Below are positions 18,138 through 64,000 of a stretch of 64,000 nucleotides of DNA, one piece after another. The notes beneath the pieces were generated by a model. The model did not search any database and had not been told where the DNA came from. It saw only the letters and a list, made by a program, of their open reading frames with translations. This stretch comes from Burkholderiaceae bacterium (lineage in GTDB: Bacteria > Pseudomonadota > Gammaproteobacteria > Burkholderiales > Burkholderiaceae_C). The position numbers and the translations under genes were made by a program. Each line of letters begins with the position of its first letter. The stretch's first letter is position 1. The stretch covers positions 1 through 64,000 of the forward strand of contig JAIRVR010000040.1 of NCBI GenBank assembly GCA_031253795.1. The letters are read 5' to 3'.

Positions 18138-18998
18138 ATGCGCATCCTGGTCTGCGGCGGTTCGGGGTTCATAGGCCGCCACATCGTCAACCAGCTGGCT
18201 CTGGCCGGCCACGATCCGGTGGCCCGCAGCCGCCACACCACGCCCGCGCTGGACTTTGCCACGGCCACCACGCCCGGCGACTGGTTGCCCCACCTGGCCG
18301 GCATGGACGCCGTGGTCAATGCCGTCGGTGTGCTGCGCGACAGCGCCAGCCGCCCCATCGAGGCCCTGCATGCCAAGGCCCCCATGGCCTTGTTCGACGC
18401 CTGCGTCCAGGCCGGTGTGCGGCGTGTGGTGCAGATCTCGGCCCTGGGCATCGAGGGCAGCGCCACGCGCTATGCCAGCACCAAGCGCGCAGCCGACGAG
18501 CATTTGCTGGCGCTGACGGCCGCAGGCCGGCTGCAGGGCTGCGTGTTGCGACCCAGCGTGGTCTTCGGCGCGGGCGGAGCCAGCAGCCGGATGTTTCTGT
18601 CGCTGGCGCGCCTGCCTGTGCTGCTGCTGCCCACGCCCGTGCAGCAGGCCCGCGTACAGCCCGTGGCCGTGCGCGATCTGGCCGAGGTGGTGGCTCGCAT
18701 GGCCACCGGCGACAGTCCCGTGGGTCTGGTCGAGATCGGGGGCCCCGATGCACTGCCGCTGGCGGCACTGATTGCCAGCCTGCGCCGGCAAATGGGCCGC
18801 AGCCCGGCCCGCATCGTCACCCTGCCCGACTGGATGAGCCGGGCCAGTGCGCGCGCCGGCGACCATGTCGCCCTGTCCCCCTGGTGCAGCGAAACCCTGG
18901 CCCTGCTGGAAAAGGACAACGTGGCAGATCCCGCCACGCTCGCGCACTGGCTGGGCCGGCCCGGCGTGGCCGCGGCCCGTTTGCTGTCCACGCTCTAG
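18138..18998 (+). CDS. NAD(P)-binding SDR-like protein (atypical SDR)
   Basis: 286 residues with an N-terminal Rossmann fold, MRILVCGGSGFIGRHIVNQL (GGxGxxG at 7-13). The Tyr-x-x-x-Lys of classical SDRs appears as YASTKRAAD near 112-120, so it is close to the NmrA/NDUFA9-like atypical SDRs. Substrate unknown. Second gene of the GbsR cluster, followed 10 nt later by the DoxX-like gene. Confidence 0.82.
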   Translation: MRILVCGGSGFIGRHIVNQLALAGHDPVARSRHTTPALDFATATTPGDWLPHLAGMDAVVNAVGVLRDSASRPIEALHAKAPMALFDACVQAGVRRVVQISALGIEGSATRYASTKRAADEHLLALTAAGRLQGCVLRPSVVFGAGGASSRMFLSLARLPVLLLPTPVQQARVQPVAVRDLAEVVARMATGDSPVGLVEIGGPDALPLAALIASLRRQMGRSPARIVTLPDWMSRASARAGDHVALSPWCSETLALLEKDNVADPATLAHWLGRPGVAAARLLSTL

Positions 18999-19008
18999 GA
19001 AAAGCAAC

Positions 19009-19410
19009 ATGCCATCTCCCTTTGCTGCAGCGCGCGTGCCGCGCCCGCTGCGCGCCATGCACGCCAGCCTGATCGCCGTCTGGCTGGGTACGGCCCTGGC
19101 CAGTGCCGTGGAACACCGCGGGCTGAGCGTGCAGGTGCTGGCCGATGCCGGCGTCCATGACGCGACCTGGCAGTCCCTGCTGATCTGGAGCGGCCTGCTG
19201 GCCGACCTTGCCGTGGGCCTGGCGCTCTGGCTGCGGCCGGGCCGCGCCAGCTATGCCGCAGCCCTGGCGCTGATGCTCTGCATGACGGCCCTGGCCACGC
19301 TGCTGCAGCCCGCGCTGTGGCTGCATCCGCTGGGGCCTCTGCTCAAGAACCTGCCCATCGCCGCCATGCTGCTGTACCTGATGCCGCAGCCACTGAAAAC
19401 CGGGGAATGA
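19009..19410 (+). CDS. DoxX-like membrane protein
   Basis: 133 residues with four hydrophobic segments; pattern and context fit the DoxX-like family that often accompanies SDR/NDUFA9-type genes. Start MPSPFAAARV at 19009 follows AGGAAAAGCAAC. Its stop overlaps the start of the next gene (ATGA), so the two are translationally coupled. Function unknown. Confidence 0.75.
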   Translation: MPSPFAAARVPRPLRAMHASLIAVWLGTALASAVEHRGLSVQVLADAGVHDATWQSLLIWSGLLADLAVGLALWLRPGRASYAAALALMLCMTALATLLQPALWLHPLGPLLKNLPIAAMLLYLMPQPLKTGE

Positions 19411-19892
19411 ACGTGAATCTCTATCTGCTGCTCAAGACCCTGCATATCGCCTCCAGCGTGCTGCTGGTGGGCACCGGCCTGGGGTCGGCCTTCTACATGT
19501 TCTTCGCCAACCGCAGCGGCAGTGTGGCGGCCCAGGCCGTCGTCAGCCGCCTGGTGGTGCGCGCGGACTGGTGGTTCACCACGCCCTGCGTCCTGATACA
19601 GCCGCTGAGCGGACTGGCCATGGCCCATATGGCGGGCTGGCCGCTGACCACGCCCTGGCTGGCGCTGTCCCTGGGCCTGTATTTGCTGGCAGGTGTCTGC
19701 TGGCTGCCCGTGGTCTGGCTGCAGCTGCGCATGGCGGCCATGGCGCGCGGCGCGCACGACGCGCAGTCGCCTCTGCCGGGCCTGTACGCCATTTATGCGC
19801 GCCGCTGGGAGGCGCTGGGCTATCCCGCCTTCCTGGCCATGGCCGTGACCTATTACCTGATGGTCAACAAGCCCGCACTGTGGGGAGGATGA
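19407..19892 (+). CDS. DUF2269 family membrane protein
   Basis: 161-residue integral membrane protein starting MNVNLYLLLKTLHIASSVLL, with four predicted helices, matching the DUF2269 family of unknown function (characteristic LKTLHI...G.G.G.AF start). It is the last gene of the regulator cluster and is convergent with the TOBE gene. Confidence 0.8.
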   Translation: MNVNLYLLLKTLHIASSVLLVGTGLGSAFYMFFANRSGSVAAQAVVSRLVVRADWWFTTPCVLIQPLSGLAMAHMAGWPLTTPWLALSLGLYLLAGVCWLPVVWLQLRMAAMARGAHDAQSPLPGLYAIYARRWEALGYPAFLAMAVTYYLMVNKPALWGG

Positions 19893-46994: not shown

Positions 46995-47071
46995 CGGAGC
47001 GTAGCGCAGCCTGGTAGCGCATCTGCTTTGGGAGCAGAGGGTCGCGAGTTCGAATCCCGCCGCTCCGACCA
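46995..47071 (+). tRNA. tRNA-Pro (anticodon TGG)
   Basis: 77 nt folding into a full cloverleaf: acceptor CGGAGCG with CGCTCCG, D arm GCGCAGCCTGGTAGCGC, anticodon stem TCTGC/GCAGA around TTTGGGA (anticodon TGG), T arm GCGAGTTCGAATCCCGC (wobble at stem) and encoded ACCA. The C at position 1 is typical of proline tRNA. Its 3' end is the left limit of the prophage-like region. Confidence 0.97.
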
Positions 47072-47260: not shown

Positions 47261-47959
47261 CTACCCTTCGGATTTCAGCTCGGCCAGCTGCGCAGCCGGC
47301 AGCAAGGCCTCCTCCTCTGGCTTCTCCGCTCCACTCCGCAGCACGCCCAGCGGCGGCAGCTTGATCAGCGCATCAGCCTGGGCGGCCGTGCCATGCAGCC
47401 AGGCGTCCCAGTACTCCTGCTCCAGCATCGCGACCCCGCGCTTTTCCTTGCCGGGCCTGTGCATCAGAGACAGGACAGGATGCGCATCGGCGTTCTGCGT
47501 GACCATCGTGTAATTCGGGACGACCTCGCCCGTGGCCGGATCCACCCACTCGCTGTAGAGCCCTGCCAGGGCCGCGGGCTCTCCGTCCGCGCGCTGGAAC
47601 GACCACCACACATTCCGGCTGCCGAGGCCCCAATAGGGCTCCACCCAGCTTTCCACGGGAATAAGACAGCGCTGGCCCGCGCGCCAGGCGGGGGCATAGG
47701 TCCAGGACTTGGCCAGCGTCTCGCGCCGCGCGTTGTTCGTGCTCATCGGCTTGCCGTCGGCAGTCATCGGCCGCCGCGTCTTCGAGCTGCGCGGGATCAT
47801 GCCCCACTGCCCCACCTCGAGCTCGCCGCCGGGCTTGATGTACGGGCCCAGGGCCAACGGCGTGACGTGCGGCTTCCACCAGCCGTTCGGGGCCTGCCTG
47901 CCGACCCGGAATGCACGCTCGATTTCGGTCTCTCGCGGGGTGTTGTAGCGGTTGCAGAT
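47261..47959 (-). CDS. SOS response-associated peptidase (SRAP/YedK/HMCES family), AUC start
   Basis: SRAP proteins form a thiazolidine crosslink to abasic sites in single-stranded DNA through Cys2. Canonical start codons give only a truncated protein beginning MALGPYIKPG at 47857. The conserved N-terminus CNRYNTPRETEIERAF lies upstream in frame, immediately after an ATC at 47959 preceded by AGGAGG with a 5-nt spacer. No ATG, GTG or TTG occurs in frame for at least 30 nt above it. With AUC as start, Cys is residue 2 as the chemistry needs, and the product has 232 residues. NNARRET, PVESWVEPYW and HPVLSLMHR carry the other active-site residues. A LexA box lies 70 nt upstream. Confidence 0.88.
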   Translation of the reverse strand: MCNRYNTPRETEIERAFRVGRQAPNGWWKPHVTPLALGPYIKPGGELEVGQWGMIPRSSKTRRPMTADGKPMSTNNARRETLAKSWTYAPAWRAGQRCLIPVESWVEPYWGLGSRNVWWSFQRADGEPAALAGLYSEWVDPATGEVVPNYTMVTQNADAHPVLSLMHRPGKEKRGVAMLEQEYWDAWLHGTAAQADALIKLPPLGVLRSGAEKPEEEALLPAAQLAELKSEG

Positions 47960-52529: not shown

Positions 52530-52619
52530 ATGATCGAGACCTACTGGCTCATCATCATCGGCCTCGGCGCCGTGGGCTTCATCTGGCAGTTCATCCGGCG
52601 CGGCGCCATCAGCCTGTGA
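52530..52619 (+). CDS. Very small membrane peptide, doubtful
   Basis: 29 codons, MIETYWLIIIGLGAVGFIWQ then FIRRGAISL, a single membrane helix with a basic tail. No Shine-Dalgarno site; its end overlaps the LPD38 gene stop by 11 nt. The frame is open further upstream to a TTG near 52500, so it could be the 3' remnant of a lost gene. Confidence 0.3.
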   Translation: MIETYWLIIIGLGAVGFIWQFIRRGAISL

Positions 52620-54582
52620 GACCGGCCACGCGCTGGGCGATGGCGTTGCGGCGCTGCTCTATCTCGTTGAGCCGCTCGCGCTTGGCCTCGCCCGACAGCA
52701 GCCGGTCGCTGTCGATCTTCTTGGCGCGCTGGCCCAGCTCCGCCATCTGCTGTTTGGCAGCGTTGATGGCCATGCGGTTGCGCAGTTTCGGCCCCTCCTC
52801 TTCCTGGATGCTCCGCGCCAGCTCGACATCGCCGGACTTGATGGCGGCCTGATGACTGGCCCAAGCCTGCTCCACGCCCTTGGCCTGCTCGTACATGGTG
52901 GTCACGTAGCGGCTGGAGCCTGTGGGCAGTTCCTCGACGAAGTTGCCAGCCAGAAAGGTATCGCGCAGGCGCACGGACGGGCGCTCGCCCCGGTCCAGCA
53001 TCGGGCGCGCAATGGTGTCCGTGGCCGTGGTGCTCACCGTGGCCAGCCAGCCGAAGTACCCGCGCAGCAGGAAGTCCACCTGTTTCGGGCTCAGGCCCGA
53101 GTACTCGCCCTTAGCCAGGCGCACCGGGTCCGGCAGACCCCAGGAGCCCAGCAGGCGCGCCACTTCCGAGGTCCGTTCGTTATAGCGGTCCTGCGGGCGC
53201 AGGCGCTCGTCGGCCATGCCCTCGATGGCCCGGCCGCTGAAGCTGTCCTTGTTGGCGTAGACGTCCAGGAAGGGCTTGATCGCCTGGGGCGTCGGGTCCA
53301 TGGCGAAGGTGTTGAACACCATGTCGCTGATGCGCTGGCCGAAGCGCTTGCCCGTCATCTCCTCGCTCATCATCAGCTCGGCCGTGCGTTCGGCCACCGT
53401 GCCGATGGCGCCCACCTCGAAGGGCTTGGGGATCCGGAAGGCCTTGTCGCCGATCTTGAACCACCAGAAATTGTCCCGGTCGAAGTCCTCGCGCTTCTTC
53501 CAGTCGTCGTCATCGGCATAGGCTGCCAGCAGGCCCAGGCTGGCCATGGACACCGCGCCGGCCATGGCGGCAAAGCGGCGCGGGTCCTCGCCGGCGGCGC
53601 GGCCCAGCTTGTACAGGCCCTGCAGCCGGGCATTCAGGAATGGCACGGTCTGGGCCAGAAAGCGCACCGTCTCCCATTTGCCGGACATGCTGAAGTCCAT
53701 CAGGTCCCGGGCCTGGAAGCTGGCCTCGGCATGGCTCAGGCCCTTGGCGCGCAGGCGCTCGTACAGCGCCGTGCGGTTCACGTTCTCCGTGCGGTCGCCG
53801 AATTCCTCGTACACCTCCCATAGGGAGCGCATCTGGTCCTTGAGCTTGTCGAAGCCCTGCTTGTCCAGCATGGTTCCGCTCAGGCGCTCGATCTGCCCGC
53901 GCAACTGGTTGGTGTTCTCCTGCGTGCCGAACTTGATGATGATTGCGGGTATCACGCTCGCGCCGCGCGCCGCAGAGACGGCTTGATCCTCCGTGGCACC
54001 GCTCTGCCTGGACAAGTCGTAGGCCGTGCCCGCAGCGTCGCCGCCAGCCATTGCAGCGTTTGCCGCAGCACCACCCACCCGGCCCGATGTCTCCAGGGCC
54101 TTGCCCGCGAGGCCAGCAGCCCGACCAGCTAGCCCCGCACCCTTCACAGCCAGGCCCGGGCCTACGAACGAGCCGGCCGCCTGCGCCGCAGCCAGCAGCG
54201 GGTTCTGTGCCACGTACTTGCCCACGGCAGCCAGCTCGCCGCCGACACCATCAGCGTCCTGCACTTCCTGGCGGAACTGTTGCTTCGAGGCCTTGACCAC
54301 ATCGCTCTGCGCGGCCTCGCCGGCCTGGATGATGTTCTTGTCGATCCAGCCCGAGACATCGTTGCCGGGCTTCACGAAGTTCGCAGCCGCCGAGACACCG
54401 CCGGCCGCAGCGTTCGCAGCCTCGATGGCCGTGTCGTTCAGGACGGCCAGGGGGTTGCGGGTCTTGGGCTTTGGCGCGCCATCGCCAACAGGCGTAGAGC
54501 CCTGCTTCCACCAGTCACCACCGGAGGCAGAGGATTCGACGGGTGTGGAGCCTTGCTTCCACCATTCATTGCTTTGTGCCAT
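52609..54582 (-). CDS. LPD38-containing phage polyvalent protein, internally shortened
   Basis: 657 residues. The N-terminus has two copies of EWWKQGSTPV/DWWKQGSTPV and an Ala-rich hydrophobic stretch (about 115-200). From about residue 212 the sequence switches to a charged C-terminal region (IIIKFGTQENTNQLRGQIER, LMDFSMSGKWETVRFLAQ, ETAELMMSE-like AERTAELMMSEEMTGKRF) that matches the large polyvalent protein-associated domain LPD38. In intact phages this region ends proteins of thousands of residues, so a large internal deletion is likely. Such proteins are carried in the virion. Confidence 0.65.
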   Translation of the reverse strand: MAQSNEWWKQGSTPVESSASGGDWWKQGSTPVGDGAPKPKTRNPLAVLNDTAIEAANAAAGGVSAAANFVKPGNDVSGWIDKNIIQAGEAAQSDVVKASKQQFRQEVQDADGVGGELAAVGKYVAQNPLLAAAQAAGSFVGPGLAVKGAGLAGRAAGLAGKALETSGRVGGAAANAAMAGGDAAGTAYDLSRQSGATEDQAVSAARGASVIPAIIIKFGTQENTNQLRGQIERLSGTMLDKQGFDKLKDQMRSLWEVYEEFGDRTENVNRTALYERLRAKGLSHAEASFQARDLMDFSMSGKWETVRFLAQTVPFLNARLQGLYKLGRAAGEDPRRFAAMAGAVSMASLGLLAAYADDDDWKKREDFDRDNFWWFKIGDKAFRIPKPFEVGAIGTVAERTAELMMSEEMTGKRFGQRISDMVFNTFAMDPTPQAIKPFLDVYANKDSFSGRAIEGMADERLRPQDRYNERTSEVARLLGSWGLPDPVRLAKGEYSGLSPKQVDFLLRGYFGWLATVSTTATDTIARPMLDRGERPSVRLRDTFLAGNFVEELPTGSSRYVTTMYEQAKGVEQAWASHQAAIKSGDVELARSIQEEEGPKLRNRMAINAAKQQMAELGQRAKKIDSDRLLSGEAKRERLNEIEQRRNAIAQRVAGLTG

Positions 54583-54587
54583 GCCCC

Positions 54588-54621
54588 CAGTGTTCCCACG
54601 CAGGGGCTGGGGCGCGAACCC
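54588..54621 (-). promoter_or_regulatory. Phage element copy C (GGGTTCG-N21-ACACTG)
   Basis: GGGTTCG-N21-ACACTG on the minus strand, ending 5 nt before the LPD38 gene start, preceded by a C/G-rich run. Same spacing as the copies at 51507, 60015 and 62691. Confidence 0.75.
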
Positions 54622-54766
54622 TGGGCGGGGGCGTGAAAAAGACTGCTGACAGCAAACCGCTCAACAACCCTTTTCTCCAGCGCCCTAGGGCGCGGCGGAA
54701 AAGGGTTCTGTTCACTACCGTGGCAATTCCCGTAGTCCAACAACGAGTTACCCGTGCTAACCTCTA

Positions 54767-55028
54767 GTTCACTGCCGCATAGGCAGCTCAGAAAAACCGT
54801 AGTTGTCGTACTTGGTGCGGATAAACGTTCACTGCCGCATAGGCAGCTCAGAAAAGACTGGCATCAACGCTGGGACGAACATCCAGGTTCACTGCCGCAT
54901 AGGCAGCTCAGAAAGCAACGATTGAGAGCGACAGTCCGACCGTGTTGTTCACTGCCGCATAGGCAGCTCAGAAAACTGGTTGTTGTCGTTGTTGATGTTG
55001 CGATCAGTTCACTGCCGCACAGGCAGCC
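54767..55028 (+). CRISPR. Orphan type I-F CRISPR mini-array (5 repeats, 4 spacers)
   Basis: Four identical 28-nt repeats start at 54767, 54827, 54887 and 54947 (GTTCACTGCC-GCATAGGCAG-CTCAGAAA). A fifth at 55007 matches for about 20 nt (one change) and then degrades. Spacers of exactly 32 nt are at 54795-54826, 54855-54886, 54915-54946 and 54975-55006. Sequence, repeat length and spacer length are those of type I-F. The degraded repeat at the right implies transcription left to right. No cas gene lies in the window. The array sits between two minus-strand phage-region genes, 7 bp from the stop of the gene at 55035, inside the prophage. Confidence 0.97.
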
Positions 55029-55034
55029 AGGCCA

Positions 55035-55877
55035 TCACGATGCGATGACCAGCCCGTGCTTACCTTCGAAGATCTTGGTCAAGGCATCCCTCACGTGCTG
55101 CAGTTCGACGCCGGTGGCCATCAGGTTCACGACGTACTGGCGTGTCCCATCCAACTCCCGTGCGACCTCCAGCGGTAAGTCGGCGCGCAGCACATTACCA
55201 TCCAAGATGACTTCAAGATCTCGCACCCTCGCTACCAACTGGTCCAGCACCATCAGCTCGATCTCGTCCTGATCGGGGAAGCGCACGAGCGAGAACACAT
55301 AGTTCGCCGTGCGATCCACGCAATACACGAGCGCCATTTCGTAGTGCTCGTCATGGGACGAGGCAGATACCTCTGCCGTCAAGGCTCTGGGGGCCTGGGT
55401 AAGATCGGTAGGAGAAAGCGAGGGAGCCGCCTCGCCGGCCAGGCCCGAGAACAGAGGTGCGGCCGGTGCCCGTGCCGAGAGGTCCTCGTCCCAGAAGGAC
55501 GAGTCGCGCCAAGTCGAGGCCAAGAACCAGGGCGTGCCGCCTGTGTCGAGCAGCACCGCCATCAAGGCCAGCACGCTGGTGACCAGGCCACCAAAGCCGA
55601 ATCCGCAGGCCAGCAAGACCAGCAGCGATCCAATGCCCGGCGCACCCGAGGCGTGAGAGAACTTGGTGAGGCCCCGAACCGTCGATAGCCACAGTGGGCG
55701 CAGGAAAGCCAGAGAGAAGTTGAACACGCCCACGGCCAGGGCCGCGCAAGCCAGCCACAGCGCCTCGTCCTGGGGATCGTTCAGGGCCTGCGCAAGCGAT
55801 ACCAGGGCCAGCCAGAGCGGCAGAAGGCCCAGCAGCAGACCTAGGCTGCGGCGTGGCCAGTTCTTCTTTTGTCGCAT
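55035..55877 (-). CDS. Membrane protein of unknown function
   Basis: 280 residues from the ATG at 55877, with AGGAGG upstream. Three to four membrane helices lie in the first 130 residues (SLGLLLGLLPLWLALVSLAQ; LLVLLACGFGFGGLVTSVLA), followed by a soluble C-terminal domain (VYCVDRTANYVFSLVRFPDQ). Not recognised. It borders the CRISPR array and lacks the phage element, so it is probably cargo. Confidence 0.7.
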   Translation of the reverse strand: MRQKKNWPRRSLGLLLGLLPLWLALVSLAQALNDPQDEALWLACAALAVGVFNFSLAFLRPLWLSTVRGLTKFSHASGAPGIGSLLVLLACGFGFGGLVTSVLALMAVLLDTGGTPWFLASTWRDSSFWDEDLSARAPAAPLFSGLAGEAAPSLSPTDLTQAPRALTAEVSASSHDEHYEMALVYCVDRTANYVFSLVRFPDQDEIELMVLDQLVARVRDLEVILDGNVLRADLPLEVARELDGTRQYVVNLMATGVELQHVRDALTKIFEGKHGLVIAS

Positions 55878-55922
55878 GCGCCCTCCTGTTGTTGGTCTGC
55901 GGCGCATGGTACGACATGGGCG

Positions 55923-55942
55923 CCAGAAACGACGAAGCCCGC
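55923..55942. repeat. 20-bp direct repeat in a terminator stem, copy 1
   Basis: CCAGAAACGACGAAGCCCGC is repeated exactly at 56301-56320. In both places it is one arm of a hairpin (GCCCGC...GCGGGC) that, on the minus strand, ends in TTCGTCGTTT and lies just past a minus-strand stop codon. A duplicated terminator, probably from gene shuffling. Confidence 0.7.
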
Positions 55943-55973
55943 CGAAGCGGGCCTTTGCCAAATGCGGCCGGAC

Positions 55974-56572: not shown

Positions 56573-57398
56573 TGTGTGCTCCTGGGTTCACCGAGGAATT
56601 GAAGTAGTGCTTGCGCGCAACCCACTTGAACCCCTCATGTTTTGTGATTGTAGCGACTTCGATCGGACCACCTATCGTAGGCGCAAGCAGACTGAAGTGC
56701 GAGAACTTGGCCGCTGTCTCTGCCAGATATTTCGCCAGCTCGATAGCATCCTGGATCGGCATGGCTGGAAGGTACAACGCTCGGAAGGTCCGTTCAATCA
56801 GCGCCTGCCTCACAGCCGGGACATTTTCAGGGTTCAGCCCTTCGGCTACGAGCCCGTCCAGCACACCCGTACTGAAACCTAGCACCAGCCGGTTTAGCGC
56901 CTCCCCATCGCCCGCCCAACGAACGCCGAACTCGTCCGCGTCGTAGAACCGCTGCATTGACTCTGTTTGACCATCTCCTATGAAGAATTCCCATCCCTGC
57001 GACAACACGTCACCAGTTCCATATCCAGAAACTCGATAACCCATCATCGATCCTGGCAGGCCGTCCGGATAAGCGACGTCAAATTGATCTTGAAAAAACT
57101 GTTGACATTTTTTCGCAACTTCTTCAACTGAATAGTTCTCTGGATCGAAATAATAAGGACTTTCGTGCACCGCAAACTGAGATCGAAGATCCTTTGACAA
57201 AGTTGCAATTGATGATGCGCCGATGGACCCCGATCCATAGGTCATAGCGCCGAGCGGCAAGCCCTTGACAAGATTGAATATCTTGTTGGCATTGTTGTAG
57301 ACCTTGATAGCTATCCCATTGCTATCAAAAAAGGTGGTTGCGCTATCTGAAGCAAGAACAATTCCGTCAGTGACTTTTACCGAAACGACGATGGTCAT
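56565..57398 (-). CDS. Proteasome-like Ntn hydrolase family protein
   Basis: 277 residues from MTIVVSVKVTDGIVLASDSA at 57398 (an upstream extension to 57473 is rejected). After Met removal, Thr1 is the nucleophile, Asp17 falls in LASDS, and a Lys in NNANKIFNL takes the place of Lys33, about five residues later because of an insertion. This is the pattern of HslV and proteasome beta subunits. Phage-borne members of this fold are uncommon. Substrate unknown; it is coupled to the 71-residue gene at 56357 and lies in the cargo block with the CRISPR array. Confidence 0.75.
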   Translation of the reverse strand: MTIVVSVKVTDGIVLASDSATTFFDSNGIAIKVYNNANKIFNLVKGLPLGAMTYGSGSIGASSIATLSKDLRSQFAVHESPYYFDPENYSVEEVAKKCQQFFQDQFDVAYPDGLPGSMMGYRVSGYGTGDVLSQGWEFFIGDGQTESMQRFYDADEFGVRWAGDGEALNRLVLGFSTGVLDGLVAEGLNPENVPAVRQALIERTFRALYLPAMPIQDAIELAKYLAETAAKFSHFSLLAPTIGGPIEVATITKHEGFKWVARKHYFNSSVNPGAHNA

Positions 57399-57507: not shown

Positions 57508-57843
57508 ATGCGCCGCCTGCTTGTACTCCCCGCCCTCCTTGCCGCCCCCGCCCTGGCCGCCAACATGGCCACATGCCTGCTGGACAAGCTCCCGGGCACG
57601 CAGAACGATGTCGCTGCCCAGGCGGTGTTCCAAGTGTGCAGCGCTGAGCACCCGGGTGGGATTCAGGCCGTGCCCCAGGGAGATGGCCGGGGCATGCTGG
57701 GATTCAAGTCCGGGCCAGAGTGCACAGTGAAAAAGGCGGGTGACACGCGGAGCACCAGAGCGGCGGAGCTGATTGGGATGGCGTGTCGGAGGCTGTATGA
57801 CGAGGACGGCTGGTGGAAGAAAAACTCCACCCCCGTCAACTAG
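57508..57843 (+). CDS. Small secreted cysteine-containing protein
   Basis: 111 residues from MRRLLVLPALLAAPALAANM (signal peptide to about 18), with four cysteines in the mature part (TCLLDK, QVCSAE, ECTVKK, MACRRL) likely in disulfides. Plus strand, opposite to the phage genes; overlaps the end of the 57840 gene by 4 nt. Function unknown. Confidence 0.65.
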   Translation: MRRLLVLPALLAAPALAANMATCLLDKLPGTQNDVAAQAVFQVCSAEHPGGIQAVPQGDGRGMLGFKSGPECTVKKAGDTRSTRAAELIGMACRRLYDEDGWWKKNSTPVN

Positions 57844-59987
57844 TTCTTCCGGTACTGCTGTCCATCCGGCGCCGTGTATAGCGTCCCAGACGGCAATGCG
57901 TTGAACTGCGCCTGATTCGTCACAGAGATTGGGCCGCCCTGCCCCGGCTGCTGCATGAACTGCCCCGTGGACCGATTGAACACCGTGGACGGCGTGTTGT
58001 AGGCCCGGCCGCTGGTCGGGTCCACCTGCTGCCCACCGGGCACCACGAGATACGGATCGGACTGCTGCGTCGCGCCCTCGATGTCCCGCATGTACTGCAC
58101 CAGGCTGCGGCGCTTGGTCGGGTCCTGCTGCTGGGCCACCTGATTTCGTGCGGCCTCCACCAGTCGGTTCGTGCGGTTCGTGTATCCCTGCGTTTCGCGG
58201 TCCATGTCCAGGCGCTGCTGGGTCAGCCCGGCCTGCATGCCGGCGCGCTGGTTCTGACCCTGCTGCTCCATGGCGGCGCGCACGAGAGCATTGCCTTGTC
58301 GCATGCCTTCTGCCTGCAGGCCTGGGGCGGCCTGCTGCAGCGCCTGGTCGGTCGTCAGCATGGCCTGGTACTTCTGCACCGCCGGGTTGTTCTCGGCGCC
58401 ACGGCCGCCCCACTGCTGAGTGTTCTTGATGGAGCTGGCCGAGACCTCGGCATTACGCAGCGCGTTGCGCGAGGCCCAGTCGTTGCCGCTATGGGCAATG
58501 GCGGCCTGCACCAGGGGGTTGCCCAGCGAGGACGACAGGCCCGGTGCGATGCCAGGCGTCTGGGTGCTGGGCACCGCGCCCGCGGGAAGCGAGTTCATCG
58601 TGCCGCCCGGAGGCTGGCCATTGATGGTGATGTTGCCACCGATGTTGGCCGGGCCGCTGTAGCTGTTGCCATCGCGCATGATGTTGGTGGGACCAGGATG
58701 TGCGGCAGGCCCAGGTATGGGAGCAGCTGCAGCACCAGGGGAGCCAGGCACACCGGCTGCACTGGCCTGTTGAGCCATGGCGGCGGCCACCAGAGGATTG
58801 GACTGGCGCGTGGTGGGCGTACGGCCAGGCGAAGCGGGGCTGTCTGCATTGGCCGCCCCCGCCAGGGCCGCGCCGCCGGCCACCACGGGCGCGTACGGGG
58901 CAGCTGCCTGGGCGGCCTGGCCCACGCCCGACATTGCAGGCTGGGCAGCGCCGAACGCCCGGGCCACCAGGCCGGTACCGCGCAGGGCTGCGCCAGGGAT
59001 CGCACCCACGCTGGGCAGGGCCGACAGATTGCGCCCCACATCGCTGTTCATGGGATTGCGCTGCGACCCGTCGGCGGCCGGGGCCTGCGGGTAGCCGTCC
59101 GTCGGGATCTGGCCCATCAGGGCAGCAGCACGGCGCTGCGCCTGTTCATCGACGATACCGCCGTCGGCAAAGCCGGGCATCGAGAGGTTCATGCTGTCCA
59201 TCACATTCCTGACAGGTGATCGCCGAGGCGGCGGGGTGACATCCGGCACGTACGCGGGTGCAACGGGCGCGCGGCCACTGGCAGAGGGTTGGCCAGTGGG
59301 TGGAGCGCCGACAACTGGGGCTGGTGCGACTGCAGGGCCTGCCAGTTGCGTCTGCGCATCCTCACGCGCCTTGCTCGGCATCAACGAGCTCGCGGTCACT
59401 TCCAGGTTGCGCCGGGCGTTGCGTTGGCTCCAGTCCATCGGCGCAGCGGTGGCACCCGAGACCGGGGGTGAGGTTGCCGAGGCCGGTGGTGCAGCGGCCG
59501 GGCTGGGCTGCCCCGGCTGTGACGTGCTTGCTGGGGCGATAGGCATGTTGGGGCGAGCGCTAGCGATTTGACTGAATGTGCCGCCCGGCTGCTGCCCATT
59601 GATCGACACATCGCCGCTCACGTTGCTGCCGCTGTAGCTGTTGCCCACGCGGGTGACCGCGCCTTGCATGGGCTGTTGGTCGTCCTGCACGACGCCTCCA
59701 TCGGCATAGCGTTGCACAGGCGTATGCGTGGCGGCGCGCAGTTCATCAAGCGCCTGTTGCCCTACTGCAGCAACAGTGTCGGCGGGCAAGACATATTCGC
59801 CGTGGGAGAGCCGTGCCTGGATGGAGTCGCTGGTGCCAGTGCCTGGGCCGCGCACCATGCCACCTGCCAAGCCTGCAGCTTCGGCGATGGGATTGGCCGG
59901 CCTGGGCCTGCCGGCCGGCGCGCGGGACGCTGCCGCAGCCAGAGCATCACGCCGCTGGGCCGCTTCGAGAAGTGGATTGGTAGCCAT
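57840..59987 (-). CDS. Large Ala/Gly/Pro-rich phage virion protein
   Basis: 715 residues. Near residue 55 is SDSIQARLSHGEYVLPADTV, a motif frequent in phage tail/virion proteins. Two related internal repeats occur: GNSYSGSNVSGDVSINGQQP near 113 and GNSYSGPANIGGNITINGQP near 440, each followed by GGT. The rest is low-complexity with a Gln-rich helical C-terminal third. Probably a structural or injected protein; no enzyme motif. Confidence 0.65.
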   Translation of the reverse strand: MATNPLLEAAQRRDALAAAASRAPAGRPRPANPIAEAAGLAGGMVRGPGTGTSDSIQARLSHGEYVLPADTVAAVGQQALDELRAATHTPVQRYADGGVVQDDQQPMQGAVTRVGNSYSGSNVSGDVSINGQQPGGTFSQIASARPNMPIAPASTSQPGQPSPAAAPPASATSPPVSGATAAPMDWSQRNARRNLEVTASSLMPSKAREDAQTQLAGPAVAPAPVVGAPPTGQPSASGRAPVAPAYVPDVTPPPRRSPVRNVMDSMNLSMPGFADGGIVDEQAQRRAAALMGQIPTDGYPQAPAADGSQRNPMNSDVGRNLSALPSVGAIPGAALRGTGLVARAFGAAQPAMSGVGQAAQAAAPYAPVVAGGAALAGAANADSPASPGRTPTTRQSNPLVAAAMAQQASAAGVPGSPGAAAAPIPGPAAHPGPTNIMRDGNSYSGPANIGGNITINGQPPGGTMNSLPAGAVPSTQTPGIAPGLSSSLGNPLVQAAIAHSGNDWASRNALRNAEVSASSIKNTQQWGGRGAENNPAVQKYQAMLTTDQALQQAAPGLQAEGMRQGNALVRAAMEQQGQNQRAGMQAGLTQQRLDMDRETQGYTNRTNRLVEAARNQVAQQQDPTKRRSLVQYMRDIEGATQQSDPYLVVPGGQQVDPTSGRAYNTPSTVFNRSTGQFMQQPGQGGPISVTNQAQFNALPSGTLYTAPDGQQYRKN

Positions 59988-62734: not shown

Positions 62735-64000
62735 TCAGCCCCGCGCGCCGTCAGCGGCCGGCGTCTCGATGCCCTGGCGCACGCCCAGCAGCGGGCTGTC
62801 GGGGCGCAGCGGCGTCAGCGGGTCGGTGTTGTTGGGCATGGCGCCAGGGTCGGGCTGCTGCTGGGGTGTGATCCATCCGCCCTGCGGCACGATGGGCGCG
62901 GCGTCCTTGTCCTGGAAGCCCACCGACCTGGCCAAGCCGTCGGCGAGCGTGGCCACGGCCGGATTCATCGAAATGAGCTGGCCGGTCTGCACGCCGCTGT
63001 ACAGCGTCTCCATGCCAGTGTTGGTAGCGTCGGCATCTGCCTTACGGGCCTGGGCCGCCAACAGTTGGGCCTTGGCCTGCACCGTCGGGTCCTGGCCCTG
63101 CTGCGCGCGCTGAGCCTTCTGCTCGTCCGTGTACTGGAAGTTCGTGGGGTCCAGGCGCTGGCCCTTGCACAGCTCGGCCGCCAGCTTGGCGGGGTCCAGC
63201 TCGTAGATGGGATTGGCCGACACCTGCAGCAGCGTCATCAGGAACTGCTGCTGGGCGTCCCGCTCGACCAGGGCCGAGCTGGCGCGCACGTCGATCTGGA
63301 AGTCGCCCTTGATGCTCTCGTCGTCCGAGTAGGTCATCATCCAGTCGAAGTACCGCTGGATGTGGGGCCTGGTCATGTAGTCGTCGAAGCGCTTGGCCAG
63401 GCGCCGCAGCACGCTGGTGGCGTTGTTGTTCTGCATCTGCATGCCACCCAAGGTGTTGGGCGCATTGCCGCGGATGCCCTGCAGCATGGCCGGCATGCCT
63501 GTGGTGTCCTCGGCCATCTTGAGGGCGAAGTTGATGATGTTCATCAGCGGGACCTGCACGCTGGGCACCACGAACGCATTGAAGGCAGCGCGCACGTCTG
63601 GGGCATCTGCATTGGCCTCCGCCCGCCAGACCTTGCCGGGACGCAAGGTGAAGCTGCCATCCTCGGGCGTGATCCCGTTGCCGATGACGACCTGTGGGGC
63701 CGCCGACAGGCCGGCGTTGTCCATCATGGCGCGGGCCGACCCGTTGAGCATGCGCTGCGCGGTGCGGACCTGGCGGCTGATACCGACACCCCAGGGCATG
63801 CCCGGGCGGCGCTGCCAGGCCAGCACGTCGTAGGGAAACTCGCCATCCTCCTGGGGGCTGAGCACGCGCAGGGATTCGGACAGCGACCGCATGGTGCTGC
63901 TGCGGTTCGCCAGGCTGGAAGCCTTGCCCGCCGCTTCGGCCAGCTTGCCGCGCTGCTCCTTGGTCAGTTCCTCAGCCGGGGCGCTGCGCAGGATGGCCGC
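62735..64000 (-). CDS. Phage portal (head-tail connector) protein, 5' part beyond window
   Basis: At least 421 residues are visible; the frame stays open to the window edge (upstream ELTKEQRGKLAEAAGKASSL precedes the first in-frame ATG at 63892). Blocks such as GEFPYDVLAWQRRPGMPWGV, MLNGSARAMMDNAGLSAAPQ and VPLMNIINFALKMAEDTTGM fit T7-type podovirus head-tail connectors. The Gln-rich tail near the C-terminus is typical. It is the first phage structural gene seen from the right. Confidence 0.75.
   Translation of the reverse strand, partial: AAILRSAPAEELTKEQRGKLAEAAGKASSLANRSSTMRSLSESLRVLSPQEDGEFPYDVLAWQRRPGMPWGVGISRQVRTAQRMLNGSARAMMDNAGLSAAPQVVIGNGITPEDGSFTLRPGKVWRAEANADAPDVRAAFNAFVVPSVQVPLMNIINFALKMAEDTTGMPAMLQGIRGNAPNTLGGMQMQNNNATSVLRRLAKRFDDYMTRPHIQRYFDWMMTYSDDESIKGDFQIDVRASSALVERDAQQQFLMTLLQVSANPIYELDPAKLAAELCKGQRLDPTNFQYTDEQKAQRAQQGQDPTVQAKAQLLAAQARKADADATNTGMETLYSGVQTGQLISMNPAVATLADGLARSVGFQDKDAAPIVPQGGWITPQQQPDPGAMPNNTDPLTPLRPDSPLLGVRQGIETPAADGARG

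Follow-up and report, generated by a model that had tools for sequence, protein, structure and literature searches.

A putative phage-borne type I-F CRISPR mini-array in a damaged prophage and its siblings in Delftia-type phages

Virus-borne mini-arrays and the present locus

The Sulfolobales viruses SPV1 and SPV2 carry mini-arrays that lack cas genes and are directed against competing viruses (Medvedeva et al. 2019, PMC6858448). A review (PMC11656645) and a model (PMC7099407) describe cas-less mini-arrays of viruses and prophages that target related viruses via the Cas proteins of the host. RNA anti-CRISPRs of the RacrIF1 type, in turn, are I-F repeats of prophages that are unassociated with other repeats (Camara-Wilpert et al. 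2023, PMC10651486). None of the titles and abstract openings listed in searches of the literature on such arrays named the phage family described here.

The array studied here lies on contig C43 (65,905 bp) of a Burkholderiaceae MAG (2.89 Mb, 59% complete). The whole stretch of DNA that was analyzed, i.e., the first 64,000 bases of this contig, is called the window. A short array in a viral genome, a host-matching repeat, and zero cas matches on the C43 remnant were found, and by its position, its lack of cas genes and its repeat the array is, as far as the DNA sequence tells, a virus-borne mini-array. Our preferred reading, with a probability of roughly 0.6, is that it is cas-less cargo in an accessory hotspot of a temperate phage lineage, found in Delftia-related bacteria, and adds guides against rivals.

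Several features are shared with SPV1 and SPV2 as described in PMC6858448. The array is cas-less and occupies an intergenic viral spot, related viruses have different spacers at the same position, and the repeats fit the host system. Spacers against competing viruses, as in SPV1 and SPV2, may be a further parallel, as some spacers of the sibling arrays match a putative rival. In contrast to the archaeal case, the carriers are temperate bacterial phages and the system is of type I-F. The SPV arrays have one to two spacers and a host-like leader (PMC6858448), whereas most arrays of the present family have 3 to 9 spacers, the window array lacks a host-type leader, and three sibling arrays end in a hairpin resembling an intrinsic terminator. 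As far as cited here, the papers do not ask for a leader in every such array. The SPV rival is a sister strain and the competition was experimental (PMC6858448); the rival found here has only short DNA blocks in common with the carriers, and competition with it is predicted from sequence. The arrays treated in PMC11656645 and PMC7099407 have one or two spacers and host-identical repeats, while the window array has four spacers and a repeat that is one base off. With RacrIF1, as characterized in PMC10651486, it shares a prophage-encoded I-F repeat and the lack of cas genes, here in a phage family to which host I-F spacers match, but it consists of five repeats in register with exact spacers and not of a solitary repeat.

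The array, its flanks and the host I-F system

The array spans positions 54767-55034 and has five type I-F repeats, four of them perfect and the last one degenerate, with four spacers of 32 nt in between. The array and its direct flanks are as follows:

54583..54766, + strand: gap of 184 bp upstream of the array, without similarity to the compared host leaders
54767..54794, + strand: I-F repeat 1 (perfect)
54795..54826, + strand: spacer 1, 32 nt, target search negative
54827..54854, + strand: I-F repeat 2 (perfect)
54855..54886, + strand: spacer 2, 32 nt, target search negative
54887..54914, + strand: I-F repeat 3 (perfect)
54915..54946, + strand: spacer 3, 32 nt, target search negative
54947..54974, + strand: I-F repeat 4 (perfect)
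54975..55006, + strand: spacer 4, 32 nt, target search negative
55007..55034, + strand: degenerate trailer repeat GTTCACTGCCGCACAGGCAGCCAGGCCA, identical to that of L033 (a sibling array) except for the last base
55035..55961, - strand: ORF of 308 aa, zero matches in PHROG, Pfam and NCBIfam

The 28-nt repeat GTTCACTGCCGCATAGGCAGCTCAGAAA is present in four identical copies (starts at 54767, 54827, 54887 and 54947), and the Rfam model CRISPR-DR4 gave 46.5 bits for the four perfect repeats (gathering score 35). The first-pass annotation had counted five I-F repeats; the array is real and four repeats are perfect, but the terminal one (55007-55034) is degenerate, with 6 of its 28 bases differing. 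The right end is thus at 55034 and not at 55028. As had been claimed, all four spacers are exactly 32 nt long. A 28-nt repeat with a short stem and 32-nt spacers are typical of type I-F. The window repeat folds into a stem of 5 bp, the host version, with a G at base 5, into one of 6 bp.

The gap upstream of the array contains an inverted repeat of 42 bp (54666-54707) and, as read by eye, a possible half repeat (54710-54720). A sigma-70 consensus promoter was sought in the gap (54583..54766) and was not found. Compared with the leader of the MAG's own host array (contig C68), the upstream region had a score of 18, with a shuffle mean of 18.8, and it resembled none of the host leaders compared. 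Downstream of the array, the stop codon of the 308-aa ORF abuts the trailer repeat. In the siblings a hairpin resembling a terminator lies at this spot; the window lacks it, and the ORF ends there instead. The 3' part of this ORF is 77% identical to DNA of a sibling phage (L091). Beyond the array, the closest + strand site that resembles a terminator is at 55844, and the number of such sites did not exceed that expected by chance. Anti-CRISPR proteins were also sought near the array: of 10 ORFs from the hotspots of the window and of L066, none was above an NCBIfam cut-off, and two had weak matches below it.

The six I-F Cas proteins of the MAG itself were used in a tblastn search (E 1e-3) of the complete contig C43, and zero matches were found. 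This agrees with the earlier statement that the 64 kb contain no cas genes, and the same search was negative for the rest of the contig, just beyond the window, as well. A complete operon is present on contig C68 of the same MAG, where an array with 54 repeats and 53 spacers adjoins csy4, csy3, csy2, csy1, cas3f and cas1f, and all six genes are individually over the NCBIfam cut-off. This operon could serve the mini-array, in agreement with the earlier proposal that a prophage-borne type I-F array borrows host Cas proteins. To the earlier question whether the host has a complete I-F operon with the same repeat, the answer is partly yes: the operon is complete, but the repeat of its array differs at base 5 as the sole position. 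Among the 53 genomes of the genus, 16 had a csy3 match.

An ordinary chromosomal array that came to lie next to phage genes, either in the assembly or by a local rearrangement, would also yield an array at this position. The window repeat is identical to that of the host array in G038, another member of the genus, and the contig stems from a MAG that is only 59% complete, both of which fit such an origin. However, C43 is devoid of cas matches, and a host-type leader is missing from the array, whereas the leader on C68 is similar to those of three other hosts (scores 108, 115 and 127). In addition, its trailer is of the phage type, unlike the repeat in which the C68 host array ends, and sibling phages hold arrays in the same variable region. 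Taken with these points, a chromosomal origin is highly improbable.

The C68 array (L009) also offered an observation of its own. Its spacer 30 has a perfect match with an ACC PAM on contig C33 of the same MAG (G000:C33:11455, L248). The site adjoins an integrase with 93% identity to the one encoded by the rival phage described below, in a seemingly reduced prophage. The match may represent self-targeting or a strain mixture.

The damaged carrier prophage and the sibling phages

The array is part of a prophage beside a tRNA gene. Its main features are as follows:

46995..47071, + strand: tRNA-Pro, border of chromosome and prophage, inferred attachment site
47261..47857, - strand: SRAP-domain gene at the prophage edge, matched by two G002 host I-F spacers with CC PAM (3 and 5 mismatches)
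52609..54582, - strand: phage gene of 657 aa (LPD38, phrog_18222), adjoining the gap upstream of the array
57840..59987, - strand: phage gene, closest to phrog_11341 (a family of unknown function), with weaker matches to tape-measure families
62735..63892, - strand: C-terminal part of a portal/head-tail adaptor protein, with a deletion junction (63859-63866)

To the left of the tRNA gene the genes look chromosomal, as judged from their translations. To its right matches to phage genes were found (LPD38/phrog_18222, phrog_11341, portal, small terminase), and the array does lie between phage-region genes, as had been noted before. Two internal deletions and the missing host-type leader had escaped the earlier reading, which was made from the letters alone. 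Compared with a close relative (G002 C45), 4395 and 2645 bp are missing, and short shared sequences are present at the junctions. One deletion is in frame and removed about 1460 internal residues of the LPD38 protein at about 53938-53945; the open frames of the closest relatives comprise 2137-2181 aa. At the site of the other deletion this relative has the rest of the portal gene, i.e., its N-terminal part, and a large-terminase gene. Because the large terminase (terL), part of the portal and the greater part of LPD38, a large structural-type protein, are gone, the prophage probably cannot spread. It is probably a remnant, unless the junctions were made by assembly: with a MAG as source and one junction in frame, 53938-53945 and 63859-63866 could reflect natural decay or an assembly artefact.

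Relatives of the array were found in other phages. The exact window repeat is present in two IMG/VR contigs. The 26-nt core of the trailer is present without mismatch in four viral contigs, which represent three distinct arrays, as L030 and L031 contain the same one (L031 ends at its locus end). The sibling arrays have six (L030/L031), four (L032) and five (L033) repeats, which have drifted, and all their spacers differ from those of the window. They occupy the same variable region of Delftia-type phages as the window array, and in L030, L032 and L033 the trailer continues into a hairpin with a T-run, similar to an intrinsic terminator. The hotspot sequence of L031 is the same as that of G001 C38 (Delftia acidovorans NBRC 14950). 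This genome is rated 100% complete and contains phage and array, and zero csy3 matches were found in it.

A search with the LPD38 N-terminus yielded 19 loci, at least five of them with an array (three distinct arrays); this count is a lower bound because some loci are incomplete. In the close relative G002 C45 the corresponding region has no array. Allowing up to three mismatches, the trailer was found in 4 of 399 family genomes, a sample with five genus members including the MAG itself and without G001. It was exact in the MAG only, and the other three matches, all with three mismatches, are probably due to chance. From the common trailer core, the same variable region and the different trailer of the host array, the cassette is recognized here as a phage locus.

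Additional arrays were seen in related prophages. In the MAG, another prophage that belongs to this family (C12) has a decayed mini-array of three repeats (L064:12817 onward), and the same listed repeats and first spacer are present in G002 C37 (L081:13727 onward). G012 C3 has two arrays, with 9 and 10 repeats, that flank the LPD38 gene (L076:9659-10167 and 18963-19530) and have two spacers in common, with one mismatch each.

Spacer targets and the possible use of the array

The earlier suggestion to match the window spacers with phages, plasmids and genomes of the genus did not lead to a convincing target for any of the four. At up to three mismatches the spacers matched nothing but themselves in 53 genus genomes. 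The best E values were 0.08 among the matches listed for 50,697 phage records and 0.06 for 72,556 plasmid records, and none was convincing. Further records (22 for spacer 4, 9 for spacer 2) yielded zero matches at up to three mismatches. In 244 sequences (2.8 Mb), with up to eight mismatches allowed, the sole match outside of the array was one of spacer 4 at locus L029, with seven mismatches and without CC. Wobble patterns of spacers 1 and 4, used as peptides against viral contigs, also revealed nothing.

It had further been argued that the protein-like translations of the spacers point to protospacers in coding DNA. The open frames were not informative, as all four spacers were open in 99.4% of 5000 shuffles, and this argument was rejected. 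A codon-position bias was left: three of the four spacers had a third-position G+C of at least 0.8 in their best open frame, compared with 11.4% of the shuffles and 54% of 481 host spacers, and the chance of three or more out of four was 0.005 with shuffles. The bias weakly suggests a coding origin and does not point to a particular phage.

A mini-array that is stranded in a decaying prophage, untranscribed and without function, would be in accord with the spacers that have no targets. The two prophage deletions and the lack of a host-type leader, a consensus promoter and the sibling terminator add to this. However, the four repeats are perfectly identical, whereas drift is seen in the repeats of the siblings and in those of the array on C12, and a long neutral decay should have left its marks on them as well. 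A dead relic is thus an unlikely explanation.

The sibling arrays gave a different result. CC, read here on the 5' side of the protospacer, is the PAM of type I-F. Five of the ten distinct spacers of the three sibling arrays matched one and the same temperate phage with 0-3 mismatches, all with 5'-CC. This rival, called G447 (IMGVR_UViG_2721755455_000010, a record of 63.7 kb), is matched by spacers A0 (no mismatch), A3/C3 (1/0 mismatches), C1 (1), B2 (3) and B3 (3), and the protospacers are located at 48.1-61.4 kb, towards the integrase end. G447 had been found through a pattern from C1 and B2 (contigs L170 and L171, the former being G447); A0, A3/C3 and B3 were not used to find it and are three independent matches. 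Spacers A1, A2/C2, A4, B1 and C4 had zero matches. As a control, 93 shuffled spacers had no match at up to five mismatches in 2.29 Mb. Host spacers matched G447 at this limit in 7 of 484 cases, one of them without CC (GAT), and relative to them the p value was 8e-7 for 5/10 and 3e-4 for 3/8, when C1 and B2 were left out. When all arrays of the family and the window were included, the values were 3e-4 for 5/31 and 0.015 for 3/29 (again without C1 and B2). None of the spacers of other array-bearing relatives matched G447, i.e., 0/2 of the C12-type array and 0/15 distinct ones of the two G012 arrays.

G447 and the array-bearing phages G449-G451 have common blocks only, of up to about 400 bp, and zero blocks shared with the window prophage were found. 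Integrases related to that of G447 (E 1e-60 or better) are present in 24 of 53 genus genomes, with 93% identity in the MAG of the window. One of the host-spacer sites in G447 lies between A3 and A0, another overlaps C1/B2, and the host array of the MAG itself also matches G447 (two mismatches, ACC). The start of one gene (56576-56625) is a site at which the matches of two phage-borne spacers and of one host spacer overlap, and the gene just before this site has a translation that, by eye, looks like SSB.

Two other roles of the spacers were considered and rejected. Self-regulation by spacers against the carrier phage was discarded, as no protospacer was found at up to seven mismatches in the parts of the array-bearing phages that were examined; a reported match of D2 to its carrier was the array itself. 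A0 is nearly palindromic and matches its own complement region with eight mismatches. The idea of hairpin- or terminator-like spacers was not supported, because 31 family and 481 host spacers did not differ in folding energy (p=0.78) and A0, the most terminator-like spacer, is a perfect G447 protospacer.

The arrays could also act on the host itself, as an RNA anti-CRISPR or decoy. Non-targeting crRNAs or repeat RNA would flood Cas6f and Cascade and lower the I-F immunity of the host to the phage. Host spacers of G002 and G038 match G449, G450, G451 and the SRAP gene of the window prophage, in eight of eight cases with CC at up to five mismatches, while CC was not universal at looser limits or with other relatives. 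Because of these matches, the phage family must have been encountered by I-F immunity in this genus, and a decoy is for that reason a possible reading. In PMC10651486, an I-F repeat RNA from a prophage inhibits the formation of Cascade, and non-targeting crRNA also lowers interference. In addition, the perfect self-match on C33 would be tolerable with an inhibited I-F system, but it may also stem from strain mixing in the MAG. The RNA anti-CRISPRs of PMC10651486 are solitary repeat units, whereas the repeats and 32-nt spacers of the window should yield normal crRNAs. Moreover, spacers of the siblings have matches in a rival phage next to a correct PAM, which would be needless for a pure decoy. 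All in all, a decoy appears rather unlikely.

Phage cargo genes of the kind invoked here are termed morons, and Cas6f cuts repeats. A combined scheme, which we regard as quite doubtful, is that of a transmissible, leaderless, moron-like cassette. Its spacers would change via recombination between repeats, not via acquisition that depends on a leader. It would be a guided weapon against rival phages and in addition a competitor for Cas6f and Cascade, which would let the lysogen tolerate a perfectly self-matching spacer at another place in its genome. These arrays pose the question by what route spacers are exchanged when a host-type leader is missing.

We return to the preferred reading, a cas-less cargo array that adds guides against rivals. 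With the phage integrated, the array would be transcribed, host Cas6f would cut the repeats, and the crRNAs would enter the host I-F Cascade as extra guides against rival phages. Lysogen and resident phage would both be protected, i.e., a heterotypic superinfection exclusion would result. As the carrier is probably a grounded remnant, its copy would now serve the host cell. The first-pass annotation had called the array a weapon against competing phages. The sibling spacers that match G447 with a CC PAM are in line with this; for the four spacers of the window, no convincing target was found. We infer a weapon role of the window copy by analogy with its siblings, together with transcription, processing, interference and the targets of its four spacers. 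Against the preferred reading stand these missing targets (0/4), the lack of a host-type leader, consensus promoter and sibling terminator, the damaged prophage, and the 59% completeness of the MAG.

Mini-arrays of this kind are known to function in viruses of archaea, and bacterial cases with a traceable rival are useful. Here sibling phages with different spacers match one temperate phage, which is also matched by host arrays of the genus, and this makes phage-versus-phage targeting testable. The borrowed use of a I-F system is testable in culturable Delftia strains. A census of the targets of I-F arrays in viral contigs (IMG/VR) could also be worthwhile. Two or more I-F repeats in register were seen in 67 stretches of IMG/VR contigs (L107-L169 and L030-L033), and 53 of 75 tabulated arrays, with the window and its relatives counted, had 2-6 repeats.
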